From Synechococcus sp. CC9902 (GTDB taxonomy: Bacteria > Cyanobacteriota > Cyanobacteriia > PCC-6307 > Cyanobiaceae): a DNA stretch of 64,000 nucleotides. The stretch is from NCBI RefSeq assembly GCF_000012505.1, contig NC_007513.1, positions 2,170,001-2,234,000 of the forward strand, read 5' to 3'. Made by a program: the position numbers and the translations under genes. This document shows, piece by piece, positions 1 to 6,773 of this stretch (its first letter is position 1; the number at the start of each line of letters is the position of its first letter). The notes under the pieces are model-generated. The model worked only from the letters and a program-made list of their open reading frames with translations. It did no database searches and was not told the DNA's origin.

Positions 1-209
1 TCGCTGAGGAACGGTTGACGCGCCCGATTGCCATCGAGATCAATAATCGAAAGACGGGCATGGCAAAAACCAACACCACTACCCTCAAGCGATTCAATCC
101 CAAAGCCATCCGGACCACGATGAGCCTGAATTGCTGCCATGTTCACCAGCAATTGCTGGTCGACACGATGTTCTGAATGCGTACGAAAGACGCCGCCGAT
201 ACCGCACAT
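1..209 (-). CDS. Class II glutamine amidotransferase, asparagine synthase type (N-terminal part only)
   Basis: The reading frame runs off the left edge of the window, leaving about 70 residues. The protein begins MCGIGGVF, so after Met removal Cys2 is the N-terminal nucleophile of Ntn-type glutaminase domains. The stretch HRGPDGFG followed by HARLSIIDL is the glutamine-binding core of asparagine synthase (AsnB) and related amidotransferases. The family transfers glutamine nitrogen to an adenylated carboxylate; the synthetase domain that would fix the substrate is outside the window. The ATG lies 8 bases after the stop of the carbamoyltransferase-like gene on the same strand, so the two are probably one transcript. 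It could be ordinary AsnB or a secondary-metabolism relative. Confidence 0.88.
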   Translation of the reverse strand, partial: MCGIGGVFRTHSEHRVDQQLLVNMAAIQAHRGPDGFGIESLEGSGVGFCHARLSIIDLDGNRARQPFLS

Positions 210-217
210 GATTCTGC

Positions 218-1360
218 TCAGACCACATCCATCACACGATCGGCTCGATCCACCATGCAGGTGAGCAGAGCCATTCGAAGAAACACAGCGCCTCGGGCCT
301 GGCTGAAATACCAATTGTGAGGAGTGTCATCGAGGCAGGTGCTCAATTCAGGCCCCCGCGCCAGCGGATGCAACACAATCGCCTCGGGCTTAAACGGCAG
401 ATCCCGCGTAAGACGAAACCCTCCACCATGCACCTCATAACTATCACCAACCCAAGCAATAGCGTTGATGTAAACCACATCAAGCTCAGGCAACTCCGCG
501 CGTAAATCAGTCGCACAACGCAGAGACAAACCAGCCTTCAGCAACTCTTCTCGCTGACCGGGATCGAAGAGTGAAACATCATTTTCGATACCCGGCGCGT
601 GAATCACTACCACCTCCTCTACCATCCCAGGGAATTTGGCGAGAATCCTTAGAAGAGACCGAACTGTTCGCATTCTCGATGGAATGCCAATAATTCCAAT
701 ACGAATTCGATCCGACTCTGCAACGTTCGGAGCAGCAAGACTGGGTCTCCACTTCAAAATTGTGTAGAGATCAGCCATCGCCTGGGTGGGATGTTCATCA
801 ATCCCATTTCCTGCATTAATGATCGGAATACGAAGCGTGGAACTCATCGCCACGACGGCTTCAGGATTGCTATCTCGGAGTACGACGCAATCTCCATAGT
901 TATTAAACATATGGGCAACATCCTCGAGCGATTCACCCTTCGCGATTCCAGTTGTGCTTCGATCCGTGATGTTGATTGAATCGCCCCCTAAGCGGTGCCA
1001 AGCACTATCGAACGACAGACGTGTTCTTGTACTGGGCTCATAAAAGGCATTAATGAGGATTTTTCCAGTTAGAGGCGTGTTGTGTCGGATGTAGCGATCA
1101 GGATTGCTCTCGTACTTAGCCGCGAGACGGAACAGCTGTAAGAGGGTCTGTGCGGAGAAACTTTGAATCGAAACCACATGCTGGTTGGTCAAATCAATCA
1201 AGGGCTCAACAGCCTCATCGATCGAAGCCAACAAACACTGGGGCTGCGTCCTACCAAACACATCTGGGCCCAACGGTTGAAACCGAATCGGCTCTATACA
1301 CACATCAGCAGAAACAGACTGGACGATGGCCATGGCATAGGTGCATCGACATTCGATCAT
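218..1360 (-). CDS. Aspartate carbamoyltransferase-like protein with altered aspartate pocket
   Basis: Member of the ATCase/OTCase superfamily. FYEPSTRTRLSF (STRTR at residues 110-114), Arg162, HPTQ (190-193) and Arg231 match the carbamoyl-phosphate site of E. coli PyrB, and Lys141 matches the 80s-loop lysine. By eye alignment the E. coli aspartate ligands Arg229 and Gln231 fall on Ala300 and Ala302 (YINAIAW), and the HPLPR loop is HPLARG. The N terminus is about 55 residues longer than in E. coli. ATG codons at 1360 or 1333 could both start it. It is followed at once by an asparagine-synthase-type gene. Retained residues suggest a working carbamoyltransferase; the acceptor is probably not simply aspartate. 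A diverged or dead pyrB paralogue is the alternative. Confidence 0.8.
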   Translation of the reverse strand: MIECRCTYAMAIVQSVSADVCIEPIRFQPLGPDVFGRTQPQCLLASIDEAVEPLIDLTNQHVVSIQSFSAQTLLQLFRLAAKYESNPDRYIRHNTPLTGKILINAFYEPSTRTRLSFDSAWHRLGGDSINITDRSTTGIAKGESLEDVAHMFNNYGDCVVLRDSNPEAVVAMSSTLRIPIINAGNGIDEHPTQAMADLYTILKWRPSLAAPNVAESDRIRIGIIGIPSRMRTVRSLLRILAKFPGMVEEVVVIHAPGIENDVSLFDPGQREELLKAGLSLRCATDLRAELPELDVVYINAIAWVGDSYEVHGGGFRLTRDLPFKPEAIVLHPLARGPELSTCLDDTPHNWYFSQARGAVFLRMALLTCMVDRADRVMDVV

Positions 1361-1502: not shown

Positions 1503-1655
1503 TTACCAGATTCGTTTCTTGCGCCATTCGAAACACCAGATAGCCAGCAACATGAGCACGGCCAAAACAAGGGCTACCTGGCTCACAGCAATCACAGCCC
1601 CGAACCAAGACGCGTCGACATACCAGGCGAGAAAAACAAAGGGAATGCAACTCAT
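1503..1655 (-). CDS. Small single-helix membrane protein coupled to the upstream symporter (50 aa)
   Basis: A 50-residue frame whose ATG overlaps the TGA of the symporter gene (ATGA), with a GGAGG-type Shine-Dalgarno just upstream inside the symporter's last codons. It begins MSCIPFVFLAWYVDASWFG, continues with a strongly hydrophobic run of about 20 residues (roughly 19-41) and ends in a basic tail (EWRKKRIW), predicting one transmembrane helix with the C terminus in the cytoplasm. Small accessory proteins accompany several SSS-family symporters, but I do not recognise this one by name. Coupling and topology support a symporter subunit or assembly factor. It is too short for ordinary gene callers. 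Confidence 0.7.
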   Translation of the reverse strand: MSCIPFVFLAWYVDASWFGAVIAVSQVALVLAVLMLLAIWCFEWRKKRIW

Positions 1656-3076
1656 AGAGCCTCCTTCAGCAGAGACCACTGAAAGCGTTCAGGCCATCGA
1701 ACACTCCCCACCACCATCACCAAAGCCGACACCGCTGTTGAGAAAACTGCAGCGCAGTACGGCGCAATCCAGACATAGGCCGACAAGCCAACAACACTCC
1801 CCGACACCATCGCCACGATCGCAGCATTGCGATTGGCGTGAGGCCAGTACAGCCCGCAGGCCACAGGCCAGACGGTTGAAGCCACTAGGGCACCCGTAAA
1901 GAACAACACCGAAGCCAAGGAATCCAACCGTGGCCATGACAACAACAACGTCAAAACAGCTAACCCAACCACCGTGACCCGAGCGGCCTGCTTGAGCTGA
2001 GCATCGCTCGCCTGGGGACGCAGCAACCTGAAATAAATATCCTCTGCCACAAGATCCGCGGTGGAGGCCAATAAAGAATCGAGTGTTGAGGTGAGCGAGG
2101 CAAAAACAACAACAAAAACCAATGCGGCTCCACCGACCCCCAGGAGATCAGCAGCCATGACGGGAAACACCATGTTCACTTGAGGAAATTCAAGGCCTCG
2201 AGCCAACGCCACCAATCCGATCGAGCCCGTCACAATCGGAACACTCATCCATGCCAGGCCACCGAGCACAAACGAGGTCATCACAACTGAACGGCGGCTC
2301 GCAAACACGCGTGACCACCAGATGTTGTTGTGAAACACCTCTCCCATTGAAAATAAAGCTGAATTCCATGCAATCAGCAGCCCTGCGGGGAGTAAAAGAT
2401 TCAGATGATCAGCATGAGAGTTGATCAAACGAGCATGAACAGCGGGTGCAGGGAATTGACGAAAAGCCAGCACAGCCACAACAGCTAATAACACCATGAT
2501 CAACACTGACTGAATAAAGTCAGTGCCAATCACCGCACGCATTCCTCCATACAGCGTGTACAACATTGCGACACCAATCACCACAATCATCCCAACGTGA
2601 TAATCAAATCCTGAAAGAGATTGAAGGAGAATGCCTGCTCCCATTGCTTGGGTCATCAGAAATCCAAGCGTATAAATGGCAGTAATCACCATGAACACCC
2701 ACCAAGCCAAACGCCCATAACGCAACCGGATGAAATCACCACTCGTGCGTCCATTGGGCATTAACTGCTTAATTCGTAGTGCTAATGGCGCGAACAGAAT
2801 TAAACCAAGACCTGCCAATGCATAACTAAACATTCCCCAAAGACCCGTTTTGTAGCCAAATTCAGGTGCAAGAAGGGTTGTATTTCCGGTCACCCAAGAC
2901 GCCATCAATGTGGCAGTACTCAACGCCAGACCAATATTCCGACCAGCGAGCATATATTCATCTGCATCGCTCTTACCTTTCCTCCCCCAAGCAACACCGA
3001 GTGCAATCCAAAGCACTGAGAAGAGAACAACCAGAGCCCACGCCAGGCCCGGAGCTAGAAACGGTTCAACCTTCAT
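1652..3076 (-). CDS. Sodium:solute symporter (SSS) family transporter, DUR3-like
   Basis: About 474 residues with some 13 hydrophobic segments. The N-terminal signature DADEYMLAGRNIG followed by SWVTGNT, and the LYGGMRAVIGTDFIQS segment, are typical of SSS (LeuT-fold) Na+-coupled symporters. The MPNGRTSGDFIRLRYG loop recalls the DUR3 urea/polyamine branch, but substrate cannot be assigned. I take the ATG at 3076 rather than the upstream one at 3124, because a small coupled gene occupies the upstream region and ends 11 bases inside this start. Its TGA overlaps the ATG of a second miniprotein. Downstream lie the carbamoyltransferase-like and amidotransferase genes, suggesting uptake of a nitrogenous compound. 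Confidence 0.85.
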   Translation of the reverse strand: MKVEPFLAPGLAWALVVLFSVLWIALGVAWGRKGKSDADEYMLAGRNIGLALSTATLMASWVTGNTTLLAPEFGYKTGLWGMFSYALAGLGLILFAPLALRIKQLMPNGRTSGDFIRLRYGRLAWWVFMVITAIYTLGFLMTQAMGAGILLQSLSGFDYHVGMIVVIGVAMLYTLYGGMRAVIGTDFIQSVLIMVLLAVVAVLAFRQFPAPAVHARLINSHADHLNLLLPAGLLIAWNSALFSMGEVFHNNIWWSRVFASRRSVVMTSFVLGGLAWMSVPIVTGSIGLVALARGLEFPQVNMVFPVMAADLLGVGGAALVFVVVFASLTSTLDSLLASTADLVAEDIYFRLLRPQASDAQLKQAARVTVVGLAVLTLLLSWPRLDSLASVLFFTGALVASTVWPVACGLYWPHANRNAAIVAMVSGSVVGLSAYVWIAPYCAAVFSTAVSALVMVVGSVRWPERFQWSLLKEAL

Positions 3077-3191
3077 CGAACGGTTCCCGTCCAAGCCAAC
3101 TGAAATGGCCTTGAAGCACCACAAAAATTGTGGCAGCAGTCACCAAGGCCCCGAGGGAAAAGATCAAGCGAGACCACAGAACATCATCCAA
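3066..3191 (-). CDS. Small single-helix membrane protein upstream of symporter (41 aa, TTG start)
   Basis: A 41-residue frame starting at TTG (3191), six bases after a GGAG Shine-Dalgarno (3198-3201), and ending with TGA at 3066-3068, inside the first codons of the symporter. The product has a charged start, a hydrophobic run RLIFSLGALVTAATIFVVL (residues 8-26) and an acidic tail ending in EPFDEG, so one transmembrane helix is predicted. The overlap with the symporter ATG at 3076 implies translational coupling. No family recognised. Start codon, ribosome site, helix and coupling agree, but the frame is short and its reality needs comparative support. Confidence 0.55.
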   Translation of the reverse strand: MDDVLWSRLIFSLGALVTAATIFVVLQGHFSWLGREPFDEG

Positions 3192-3400
3192 ACCAAGCTC
3201 CAGAAGCTTTTGGCAACATACAACTCGACAAATACGTTCTTACTCATACTGCGAACGATCACTAATCCAGTAAGGGTATTAACCGAGACCAAAAACCCTA
3301 TCCCTGCAACCAGCTAATTGCCCGATCAAGCGATCGGTAACAAACAACACCTAGTTCAACAGACAGACGGATCTTTGATGAGTTGCCCATTGGTGAGCCA

Positions 3401-4909
3401 ATGTTCACTGAGTATCGGCCAACCCATGGTTACGACGAATATTTTTGTCGGGAACAATCTGCTCCCAGAGCAGACCTGGAGCCACTGCTGTCGTCGCTTG
3501 GACAGATAGGACTCACAGAACTCAACCGCAATCACGCTTCCGCCGGGAACCTTTTAAGACGACTCGGGGCCACCTTCCGACTCAACGACGCTGGACTGCA
3601 TGGAGGCGAAAGGATCCTGCCCTTCGATCCCCTTCCACGACTCATTCACCAACATGAATGGTCCAACCTCGAACGTGGTCTCCTGCAGCGCCTAGAAGCA
3701 ATTGATCGGTTCTTAGCAGACATCTATGGACCACAGAAAATCCTCAAGGATGGCGTGATTCCACGGGAAGACGTGGAAAGTTCGCAAGGCTGGAGGCCAC
3801 AGATGCAAGACATCAAGCTGCCCCTAAATCGCTGGTGTCATATTTCAGGACTGGATCTAATCCGCGATGAGGCAGGCACTTGGCGCGTACTCGAAGACAA
3901 CCTGCGCTGTCCATCCGGTGTGGCCTACTTCCTCGAGAACCGACAGGTCATGAAGCGATTGTTTCCCAGCCTGTTTGCTGGACGAACCGTTCAACCCATC
4001 GACGACTATCCCTCCAGGTTGTTACAGACACTGCAAGACTTAGCTCCTTGGGCAGATAAGCCACGCGTTGTATTGCTCACACCAGGAGTATTCAATAGTG
4101 CCTACTTCGAACACAGTTATCTCGCACAACAGATGGGCATCGCTCTGGTGGAAGGGCGTGACTTGATCTGCGAAGAAGGCCGCGTTTGGATGCGCAGCAC
4201 AACTGGTCGTGAAGTGGTGGATGTGATCTACCGACGAATCGATGACGATTTTCTCGATCCAAAGGTGTTCCGTCGCGATTCAGCGCTGGGCGTACCTGGA
4301 TTGATCGATGTTTTGCAGAGTGGCAGGGTCGCCATTGCCAATGCACCCGGCACCGGGATCGCCGACGACAAGTTGATCTACGCCTACATCCCGAAAATAA
4401 TTCGGTATTACCTCAATGAAGAACCGATTATCGAAAATGTTCCCACCTATCTCTGCTCCCGCCCAGATGATCAACAGTACGTTCTAGAAAACCTTGAAAA
4501 GCTTGTGGTTAAGTCTGTAGCTGAAGCAGGAGGCTATGGAATGCTGATCGGCCCACAATCAAGCCGAAGTGAGATCTTAGAATTTGACACAAAGATTAGA
4601 TCTAATCCACGCAATTACATAGCCCAGCCCACGCTTCAACTCTCCACCATTCCTGCACTGAGCCAGGGAGAACTATTTCCCTGTCATGTGGATTTACGGC
4701 CCTATATTTTACGCGGAAAGTCCAACTGGGTCAGCCCAGGTGGGCTGACCCGCGTCGCCTTAAAGCGTGGCTCTTTGGTGGTGAACTCATCCCAAGGTGG
4801 TGGCTGTAAAGACACATGGGTTGTGGGTGACAGCCAGGTTGTGGGTGACAGCCAGGTTGTAAACGACGGTGACGTTGAACCAACACTTCAGGAGGCAATG
4901 CCGTGCTGA
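3401..4909 (+). CDS. Circularly permuted ATP-grasp type 2 protein
   Basis: A 502-residue protein of the circularly permuted ATP-grasp family (CP_ATPgrasp). Hallmarks visible: VLEDNLRCPSGVAYFLENR in the N-terminal half, KSVAEAGGYGMLIGP in the middle, RPYILRG, and PGGLTRVAL followed by VVNSSQGGGCKDTWVV near the end. The family is predicted to form peptide-like or amide bonds and nearly always sits with alpha-E and transglutaminase genes, as here. ATG 3401 is chosen over the in-frame TTG 3383. The C terminus carries an in-frame 18-base duplication giving VVGDSQ twice. The next gene overlaps by 7 bases. Substrate unknown. Confidence 0.93.
   Translation: MFTEYRPTHGYDEYFCREQSAPRADLEPLLSSLGQIGLTELNRNHASAGNLLRRLGATFRLNDAGLHGGERILPFDPLPRLIHQHEWSNLERGLLQRLEAIDRFLADIYGPQKILKDGVIPREDVESSQGWRPQMQDIKLPLNRWCHISGLDLIRDEAGTWRVLEDNLRCPSGVAYFLENRQVMKRLFPSLFAGRTVQPIDDYPSRLLQTLQDLAPWADKPRVVLLTPGVFNSAYFEHSYLAQQMGIALVEGRDLICEEGRVWMRSTTGREVVDVIYRRIDDDFLDPKVFRRDSALGVPGLIDVLQSGRVAIANAPGTGIADDKLIYAYIPKIIRYYLNEEPIIENVPTYLCSRPDDQQYVLENLEKLVVKSVAEAGGYGMLIGPQSSRSEILEFDTKIRSNPRNYIAQPTLQLSTIPALSQGELFPCHVDLRPYILRGKSNWVSPGGLTRVALKRGSLVVNSSQGGGCKDTWVVGDSQVVGDSQVVNDGDVEPTLQEAMPC
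4820..4860 (+). repeat. 18-base tandem repeat at the 3' end of the ATP-grasp gene
   Basis: Two perfect copies of an 18-base unit (4820-4837 and 4838-4855) followed by a partial third (GTTGT). It is in frame and encodes VVGDSQ-VVGDSQ-VV after the conserved KDTWVV ending, so it lengthens a variable tail without touching the conserved fold. Looks like a recent slippage duplication. Confidence 0.9.
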
Positions 4910-5886
4910 GCCGGGTTGCCGACTCCCTCTACTGGATTAATCGATATGTAGAACGCGCTGAAAATATTTCTCGCTTTCTGGAAGTAAGTGAAGCCATGGC
5001 TTTGGATTGCCCACCCGGCAGTGCAGAACCATGGATCCCACTCATTGATGCCAGTGGAGACAGGCAGAGTTTCGATCAGGGCTACCCACTGCGATCTCCG
5101 CGAGATGTCGTGGGGTTTTTATTGCTAGACCGCGATAACCCCAACAGCATCCTCAGCTGCATTGCCACTGCCAGGGAAAATGCACGCCAAATCCGCGATG
5201 TTATTACCACAGAAATGTGGGAGCAATTGAACGACCTCTACTGGAATGTTCAAGATGGAGAAGCCATCTGGCAGGAACCAGATCAAGAGCAACTCCGCAG
5301 CATCCGAAGAGGTTGCCAACTGTTTTATGGCATTACGGATGTCACCCTGAGCCGCGATCAAGCCTGGCTCTTCAGTCAACTAGGCCGTTGGATTGAACGC
5401 GCCGACAAAACATCCAGAATCCTTGATGTGAAGTATTTTCTTCTTCTGCCAACCCCAAAAGAAATTGGTGGCGTTCTTGATGAACTTCAATGGATATCTC
5501 TACTTCGTACAGCTGGGGCTTACCAGATGTACCGCCAAAGTGTTCAACAGGCGATCACTCCATCCTCTGTGGCCAGGTTCCTTTTACTGGATCCAATTTT
5601 TCCAAGGTCAGTGCGCTTCTGTTTGCAACAAATCAACGACACATTGCAACTCATCCAACGGCAACCACAACTGGGCCCTCCTGACGATCTCGAATGCCTA
5701 CGCGGGCAATTGCTGGCCAAGTGGAGCTATGTGCGGATTGACGCCCTAATTGAACGGGGGCTACACGAAGCCATTGACGAATTACAGGGAGATCTCAATC
5801 AACTGCATCAACTCATCCACGCCCGATATTTCGTCACCACCGACCTTGGCTCCATTCCCACTGACCCGTCATGCGCGCTGAGCTAA
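4903..5886 (+). CDS. Alpha-E domain protein
   Basis: 327 residues, all predicted helical, beginning MLSRVADSLYWINRYVERAEN, the start signature of the alpha-E family (once DUF403). Starts at GTG 4903 with GGAGG at about 4891, overlapping the end of the ATP-grasp gene by 7 bases; its own end overlaps the transglutaminase gene by 16. The family has no established biochemistry, but it is a constant partner of circularly permuted ATP-grasp and transglutaminase-like proteins, sometimes fused to the former, so it is inferred to be a subunit or substrate-handling partner of that peptide-modifying system. Confidence 0.93.
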   Translation: MLSRVADSLYWINRYVERAENISRFLEVSEAMALDCPPGSAEPWIPLIDASGDRQSFDQGYPLRSPRDVVGFLLLDRDNPNSILSCIATARENARQIRDVITTEMWEQLNDLYWNVQDGEAIWQEPDQEQLRSIRRGCQLFYGITDVTLSRDQAWLFSQLGRWIERADKTSRILDVKYFLLLPTPKEIGGVLDELQWISLLRTAGAYQMYRQSVQQAITPSSVARFLLLDPIFPRSVRFCLQQINDTLQLIQRQPQLGPPDDLECLRGQLLAKWSYVRIDALIERGLHEAIDELQGDLNQLHQLIHARYFVTTDLGSIPTDPSCALS

Positions 5887-6773
5887 CCCACTGCATCACC
5901 TACCACTACGACGCTCCGGTCAGCTTGAGCGAGCACAGGCTCTGCATGCGACCTCGGGGTCATGGTCATCAGCGCCTGCTGAATTACCAACTCAATATTT
6001 CGCCAAAGCCTTGCCACAGCCATGAACTCGTAGCAGCCAGTGGCGATGCCATTCAACGCGTGCGGTTTCAAAACGCCACCGATGAACTCCGCTTTGAAGC
6101 TTGCAGTCGCCTCGAAACCACAACTGCAGCACCCCTACTGAATTGTCTAGATGGCCGCGAACCACTTCTCCCTTATCCACGGGGTCGTCTGAATCCAGAT
6201 CTTCAAGGTGCACTGGAGGGCTGGCTGCCAAACGGCCAACACGATCCCTCAGCTGTTGCTTTGGCTCAAGACGCCTTAATGGGAACCAACCAACAAGCAC
6301 TGTCGTTTCTCAATCAGCTCATCGAGATGATCCAAGACAGGGTGAAATACACCCAGCGTCATCAAGGAGCCGCCTGGCCGGCGGGACGAACACTGCGGGA
6401 ACGAGTTGGTTCCTGTCGCGACCTCGCAATGTTGATGGTCGAGTGCTGCAGAAGCATTGGGCTACCGGCACGATTTGTAAGCGGATATCACTTAGCGAAC
6501 CCAGCGCCCGAGTCGTACGACCTACACGCCTGGGCAGAGGTTTACTTACCAGGTGCCGGATGGCGTGGATTTGACCCGAGCGCCGGAGGAGAAACAACCG
6601 ATCGCTACATCGTGCTGGCAAGCTCCTCAAGTCCAGAGCTCACGGCAGCGATTACTGGCAGCTTCAGCGGACTGGCATCAACGCAAAGCCAACTGAGTTG
6701 GACGATCCAAGCGACCGTTGACGACAACACCAATCAACCTGGGGAAAAGAAGACCCTGATTCAGGCAGCTTGA
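5871..6773 (+). CDS. Transglutaminase-like cysteine protease with bacterial N-terminal domain
   Basis: 300 residues. The N terminus (ELTHCITYHYDAPVSLSEHR) is the bacterial transglutaminase-like N-terminal region; the core has GSCRDLA with Cys182, LHAWAEVYLPG with His219 and FDPSAG with Asp235, a complete Cys-His-Asp triad. The protein is predicted cytoplasmic (no signal peptide). ATG 5871 lies inside the alpha-E gene, so the three genes form one coupled operon. In such operons the enzyme probably cleaves or transfers amide bonds made by the ATP-grasp ligase. The last 13 bases overlap the convergent cupin-like gene. Confidence 0.93.
   Translation: MRAELTHCITYHYDAPVSLSEHRLCMRPRGHGHQRLLNYQLNISPKPCHSHELVAASGDAIQRVRFQNATDELRFEACSRLETTTAAPLLNCLDGREPLLPYPRGRLNPDLQGALEGWLPNGQHDPSAVALAQDALMGTNQQALSFLNQLIEMIQDRVKYTQRHQGAAWPAGRTLRERVGSCRDLAMLMVECCRSIGLPARFVSGYHLANPAPESYDLHAWAEVYLPGAGWRGFDPSAGGETTDRYIVLASSSSPELTAAITGSFSGLASTQSQLSWTIQATVDDNTNQPGEKKTLIQAA

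Follow-up and report, generated by a model that had tools for sequence, protein, structure and literature searches.

The window analysed here is a stretch of 64,000 nucleotides from the genome of Synechococcus sp. CC9902 (NC_007513.1, positions 2,170,001 to 2,234,000). In this genome, genes for an SSS-family symporter, a carbamoyltransferase (CTase), an AsnB-like amidotransferase, an M20 hydrolase and a DUF1028 protein follow one another in that order on one strand, and are followed by urease genes (Table 1). The start codon of the AsnB-like gene lies 9 bp after the CTase stop codon, and no pyrimidine genes adjoin the CTase gene. An earlier note on this DNA, which had set the CTase beside an asparagine-synthase-type gene and away from pyrimidine genes, was right on both points.

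Table 1. Features of the carbamoyltransferase locus, in window coordinates
Feature	Position	Strand	Remarks
AsnB-like glutamine-dependent amidotransferase, 5′ part (MCGIGGVF)	1..209	minus	Runs past the window to genome position 2168185 (L004:8185-10209)
Carbamoyltransferase, separate clade	218..1360	minus	380 aa from first ATG; likely true start Met10 = 218-1333
HPLARGPEL motif (HPLPR in PyrB)	345..370	minus	From PyrB alignment
Trp303 codon, next after Ala302	452-454	minus	Invariant Trp
Ala302 codon (E. coli Gln231 position)	455..457	minus	Coordinate from ORF frame
Ala300 codon (E. coli Arg229 position)	461..463	minus	Coordinate from ORF frame
Na+/solute symporter (SSS family), upstream of CTase	1652..3124	minus	Present in 49/80 loci

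The CTase matches the Pfam families OTCace_N (1e-40) and OTCace (5.5e-12). Residues 1-9 are probably untranslated, since the homologous genes of relatives carry an in-frame TGA a short way 5′ of the codon equivalent to Met10. The N-terminal extension that the earlier note had described exists; its suggested length of about 55 residues did not hold, since only some 30 residues (roughly 25-57) ahead of the PyrB-homologous part align family-wide and the first nine probably do not belong to the protein.

To assess the active site, we aligned the CTase with PyrB of E. coli K-12 (from NC_000913), to which it is about 31% identical. The carbamoyl-phosphate residues were matched as had been read from the sequence before: S52, T53, R54, T55 and R56 of PyrB correspond to S110-R114 (STRTR), and K84, R105, H134, Q137 and R167 correspond to K141, R162, H190, Q193 and R231. 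At the acceptor site the alignment is gapless, anchored by a shared D-x-x-Y motif (D294, Y297) three residues earlier. Here the aspartate-binding residues R229 and Q231 are replaced by A300 and A302, and further on P268 is replaced by A334, turning HPLPR into HPLARG; both changes had been pointed out previously. Two more replacements were absent from that list, Ser80 to Gly138 and Glu233 to Val304. In E. coli ATCase, Glu233 is the salt-bridge partner that keeps Arg229 in place, and Arg167 contacts PALA (PMC6056424).

The same pattern was observed in an alignment of 43 CTase homologues with 59-83% identity. Positions 300 and 302 are Ala in at least 90% of the sequences, and W204, M230, N299 and W303 are invariant. 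None of the 43 sequences has Arg or Gln at positions 300 and 302, so that the objection foreseen in the earlier note, a return of these residues to the acceptor pocket, did not materialise. One homologue (L060) has Thr and Ser in place of the two Ala residues.

The best-scoring profile on the CTase is TIGR00670 (asp_carb_tr), at 189.8 bits against a cut-off of 236.95. Other carbamoyltransferase models, which have the carbamoyl-phosphate domain in common with the CTase, gave weak scores: 28.7-31.4 bits for YgeW, 64.9 for putrescine and 95-108 for ornithine types. The YgeW insertion and the D-V-W-x-S-M-G motif of ornithine carbamoyltransferases are both absent. An AlphaFold model (mean pLDDT 82.8, pTM 0.84) has the ATCase fold, and its nearest solved structures are ATCases, with a TM of about 0.85 when normalised by target length. 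A tree that included PyrB and ArgF sequences of the same genomes placed the 26 sampled CTases on one side of a branch with support of 100/99. The stem of this clade is long, the PyrB sequences form another group (84/86), and YgeW and ArgF fall outside. CC9902 itself encodes both an ArgF (L003) and a PyrB (L002), the latter with the Arg229 and Gln231 equivalents kept; the earlier note's other refuting condition, a genome with no further pyrB, thus does not apply. The CTase resembles E. coli PyrB and the TIGR00670 family in its fold, in its carbamoyl-phosphate residues (with Gly for S80) and in having equivalents of Arg167 and Lys84, but differs in the replacement of Arg229, Gln231, Glu233 and Ser80, in the invariant W303, in the conserved N-terminal extension, and in its clade and genomic location. 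The clade-wide loss of aspartate-binding residues, the separate clade and the presence of a normal PyrB in the same genome support the proposal of the earlier note that the enzyme uses another acceptor amine, which that note did not name.

The AsnB-like protein retains the N-terminal Cys of glutamine-dependent amidotransferases (MCGI). Its best profile is TIGR01536, for which it is the only match in the genome at E 1e-20, and it scores 297.5 bits against a TIGR03104 cut-off of 570.1. In a tree that lacks AsnO itself, the cassette proteins formed their own clade (99/100), which includes neither E. coli AsnB nor the other AsnB-like proteins of Ectothiorhodospira. AsnO was sought for comparison in one Sinorhizobium pSymB stretch and had no match there; the annotated match is another AsnB, encoded next to an acyl carrier protein. 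Among 98 relatives surveyed, those with the CTase also have a close AsnB (at least 72% identity), and near-complete Synechococcus genomes without the CTase, such as G007 and G014, lack it. A role as housekeeping asparagine synthetase is therefore unlikely for the cassette AsnB, which forms its own clade and is missing together with the CTase from near-complete relatives.

These results bear on another reading, a second aspartate carbamoyltransferase or redundant enzyme next to an ordinary asparagine synthetase. The top profiles of the two proteins (TIGR00670 and TIGR01536), the similarity of the fold to ATCases, and the fact that AsnB is the genome's only TIGR01536 match at E 1e-20 all agree with it. 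We nevertheless regard it as very improbable, as the CTase falls short of the TIGR00670 cut-off, Arg229, Gln231 and Glu233 are lost throughout the clade, a normal PyrB is present, and near-complete relatives do without both the CTase and the cassette AsnB.

An AsnB of the cassette clade also occurs, without a CTase, in two cyanobacteria from other families (L162:8124-11122 and L163:7975-10005), where it may act on another compound. Next to it in L162 are genes for a DUF1028 protein and a peptide-type ABC transporter, which suggests that AsnB and DUF1028 may form a make-and-break pair for an amide.

The neighbourhoods of 80 homologous loci in public genomes were then compared. The AsnB-like gene lies directly downstream of the CTase gene in 77 of them, with a spacing of -9 to 389 bp, and the remaining three contigs break off inside the CTase gene or a short way past it. 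The M20 gene is present in 68 loci, the symporter gene in 49, and DUF1028 in 29, all of these last being picocyanobacterial sequences. In Ectothiorhodospira and Thioalkalivibrio, a gene for an isochorismatase-family hydrolase lies between M20 and the CTase or symporter gene. A MarR-family gene was found in 18 loci (domain confirmed for two); in Ectothiorhodospira and Thioalkalivibrio it lies upstream of M20, and in Kangiella, among others, close to the cassette. Three loci (L151, L083 and L077) have an intact MscS channel gene immediately after AsnB, and two more contain remnants of one. The best NCBIfam model for the M20 protein of CC9902 is ErtE, N-carbamyl-L-glutamate amidohydrolase, with a score under the cut-off; there and in other genera M20 scores above the cut-off of the hydantoinase/carbamoylase subfamily. 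Between phyla, the CTase and AsnB retain about 58-68% identity and the INAIAW core is conserved. The organisms carrying the cassette are, to judge from their names, mostly marine, halophilic or haloalkaliphilic. Two loci from public MAGs (L008, NYVG01000026.1; L038, JAKQYF010000253.1) are probable binning errors: one contig assigned to Gammaproteobacteria shares 99% identity with the CC9902 cassette, and another, assigned to Trichodesmium, has a Prochlorococcus-type cassette.

A symporter and hydrolases could also accompany a catabolic carbamoyltransferase working in reverse, to produce carbamoyl phosphate from an imported N-carbamoyl compound, a direction known or proposed for putrescine, oxamate and YgeW-type enzymes. 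This seems hardly credible for the cassette, whose most constant partner is an ATP-consuming, glutamine-dependent amidotransferase. The M20 hydrolase would moreover waste the carbamoyl group, and a general neighbour scan noticed no carbamate-kinase gene among the conserved neighbours.

The neighbouring genes suggest that the product is an N-carbamoyl amino-acid amide, most likely carbamoyl-glutamine amide (CGA). In the proposed pathway, carbamoyl phosphate would carbamoylate an amino acid, most likely glutamine, at its α-amino group, and AsnB would then amidate the α-carboxylate, or the two steps could occur in the reverse order, to yield a neutral, doubly capped amino acid. Arg167 of ATCase can hold an α-carboxylate. 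Its retained equivalent could still hold that of the acceptor, while loss of Arg229, Gln231 and Glu233 would remove the site for a second carboxylate, a combination that suits an acceptor amino acid whose side chain is neutral, as in glutamine. The residue changes speak more strongly against aspartate than for glutamine. The M20 N-carbamoyl-amino-acid hydrolase and a second amidase, DUF1028 in picocyanobacteria and the isochorismatase-family protein in Ectothiorhodospira and Thioalkalivibrio, would break the product down, and the Na+ symporter would re-import lost solute or import external solute. We infer the product, the order of substrates, the roles of the hydrolases and symporter, and an osmolyte function in Synechococcus.

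A precedent exists in the NAGGN operon (asnO, ngg and an aminopeptidase gene; PA3459-PA3461 with the MarR gene PA3458), in which a glutamine-derived compound is N-capped and amidated by AsnO under a divergent MarR repressor (PMC8070244). Both systems combine a capping enzyme, an AsnB-type amidotransferase and a hydrolase, with MarR in some loci, and NAGGN is a glutamine-derived neutral osmolyte like the proposed product. In the cassette, however, capping would be carried out by a carbamoyltransferase and not by an acetyltransferase/ligase, the hydrolase is an M20 carbamoylase, and AsnB, being below the TIGR03104 cut-off, belongs to a different subfamily from the NAGGN amidotransferase. No acetyltransferase was found among the recurrent cassette neighbours scanned, which sets the cassette apart from the NAGGN operon. 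MarR regulators occur in both NAGGN (PMC8070244) and ectoine (PMC5924519) clusters, and the MscS and MarR neighbours of the cassette count in favour of an osmolyte. We put at about 0.6 the probability that the CTase and amidotransferase make CGA or a close analogue which the hydrolases recycle, in parallel to the NAGGN operon.

CGA has been reported from one species, in which it is a minor component (PMC3857566). The cassette CTase was present in all ten genomes searched of Ectothiorhodospira, the salt-loving genus of this sole known producer. Nine of them contain exactly three carbamoyltransferase-family matches at E 1e-10 or better, namely the cassette CTase, PyrB and ArgF. The cassette CTase is therefore the only additional superfamily member detected there that could carbamoylate glutamine. 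The cassette of one Ectothiorhodospira genome (G108) reads MarR - M20 - isochorismatase-family - CTase - AsnB. In the tenth genome (G111, C1:1194650-1195683; L136 and L137) the CTase gene falls into two overlapping reading frames, owing to a frameshift or a sequencing error.

The CGA system (PMC1224877) corresponds to the proposed product of a cassette found in every Ectothiorhodospira genome searched, and differs from it in that no genes had previously been assigned in the literature searched. Open-access literature searches on CGA genes, on DUF1028 with a carbamoyltransferase and on ErtE yielded no gene assignment. A 2020 survey of osmolyte genes in phototrophic bacteria names CGA and, in the portion of the text consulted, gives no genes for it (PMC7824335). 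The CTase and the asparagine synthase are absent from the main text of Synechococcus osmoregulation and salinity papers (PMC2874817, PMC12834511, PMC9948718), and carbamoyl compounds are absent from a Prochlorococcus metabolite paper (PMC10654061).

Against CGA as the product, it is a minor solute of one species while the cassette occurs in many genera, and the picocyanobacterial cassette lies beside urease genes, which fits nitrogen metabolism as well. The same chemistry might instead start from another amino acid and yield its N-carbamoyl amide, or yield a compound for nitrogen storage or exchange that is not an osmolyte. Nitrogen recycling would be served by two hydrolases that cleave amides together with a symporter for uptake, and because picocyanobacteria have DUF1028 instead of the isochorismatase-family hydrolase, the product may differ between lineages. 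On the other hand, the CTase and AsnB identity of about 58-68% across phyla and the conserved INAIAW core suggest one product, and the proteobacterial MscS and MarR neighbours and the match to the CGA-producing genus speak for CGA. We judge a nitrogen compound or other amide possible but distinctly the less probable outcome.

For CGA itself, the proposed carbamoyltransferase is linked to an amidating enzyme at 77 of the 80 loci. It appears to us slightly more likely than not that the genes for CGA have been found, and that its producers also include many marine Synechococcus and Prochlorococcus as well as proteobacteria from the sea and from soda lakes, all using a carbamoyltransferase with a previously unassigned acceptor. 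If so, a compatible solute described in 1991 and known from one purple sulfur bacterium would be linked to genes, and the carbamoyltransferase superfamily would gain an acceptor specificity. Synechococcus and Prochlorococcus would be predicted to contain an unrecognised nitrogen-rich solute that affects nitrogen exchange in the sea, and the annotations of both enzymes, as aspartate carbamoyltransferase and asparagine synthase, would be corrected.

Other genes were observed around the symporter gene. In marine gammaproteobacteria (L052, L054-L057, L059, L061 and L063), a small protein of about 140-185 aa is encoded just before it. Its N terminus is signal-like and a hydrophobic helix lies at the C terminus; the one member scanned had no Pfam match. 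In the window, three consecutive genes on the plus strand (3383-6773) diverge from the symporter gene and resemble the circularly permuted ATP-grasp / alpha-E / transglutaminase-like trio. The first of these is found at the same place in several marine Synechococcus loci; in Alteromonas halophila (L076) a homologue with 49% identity lies about 5 kb past the cassette.
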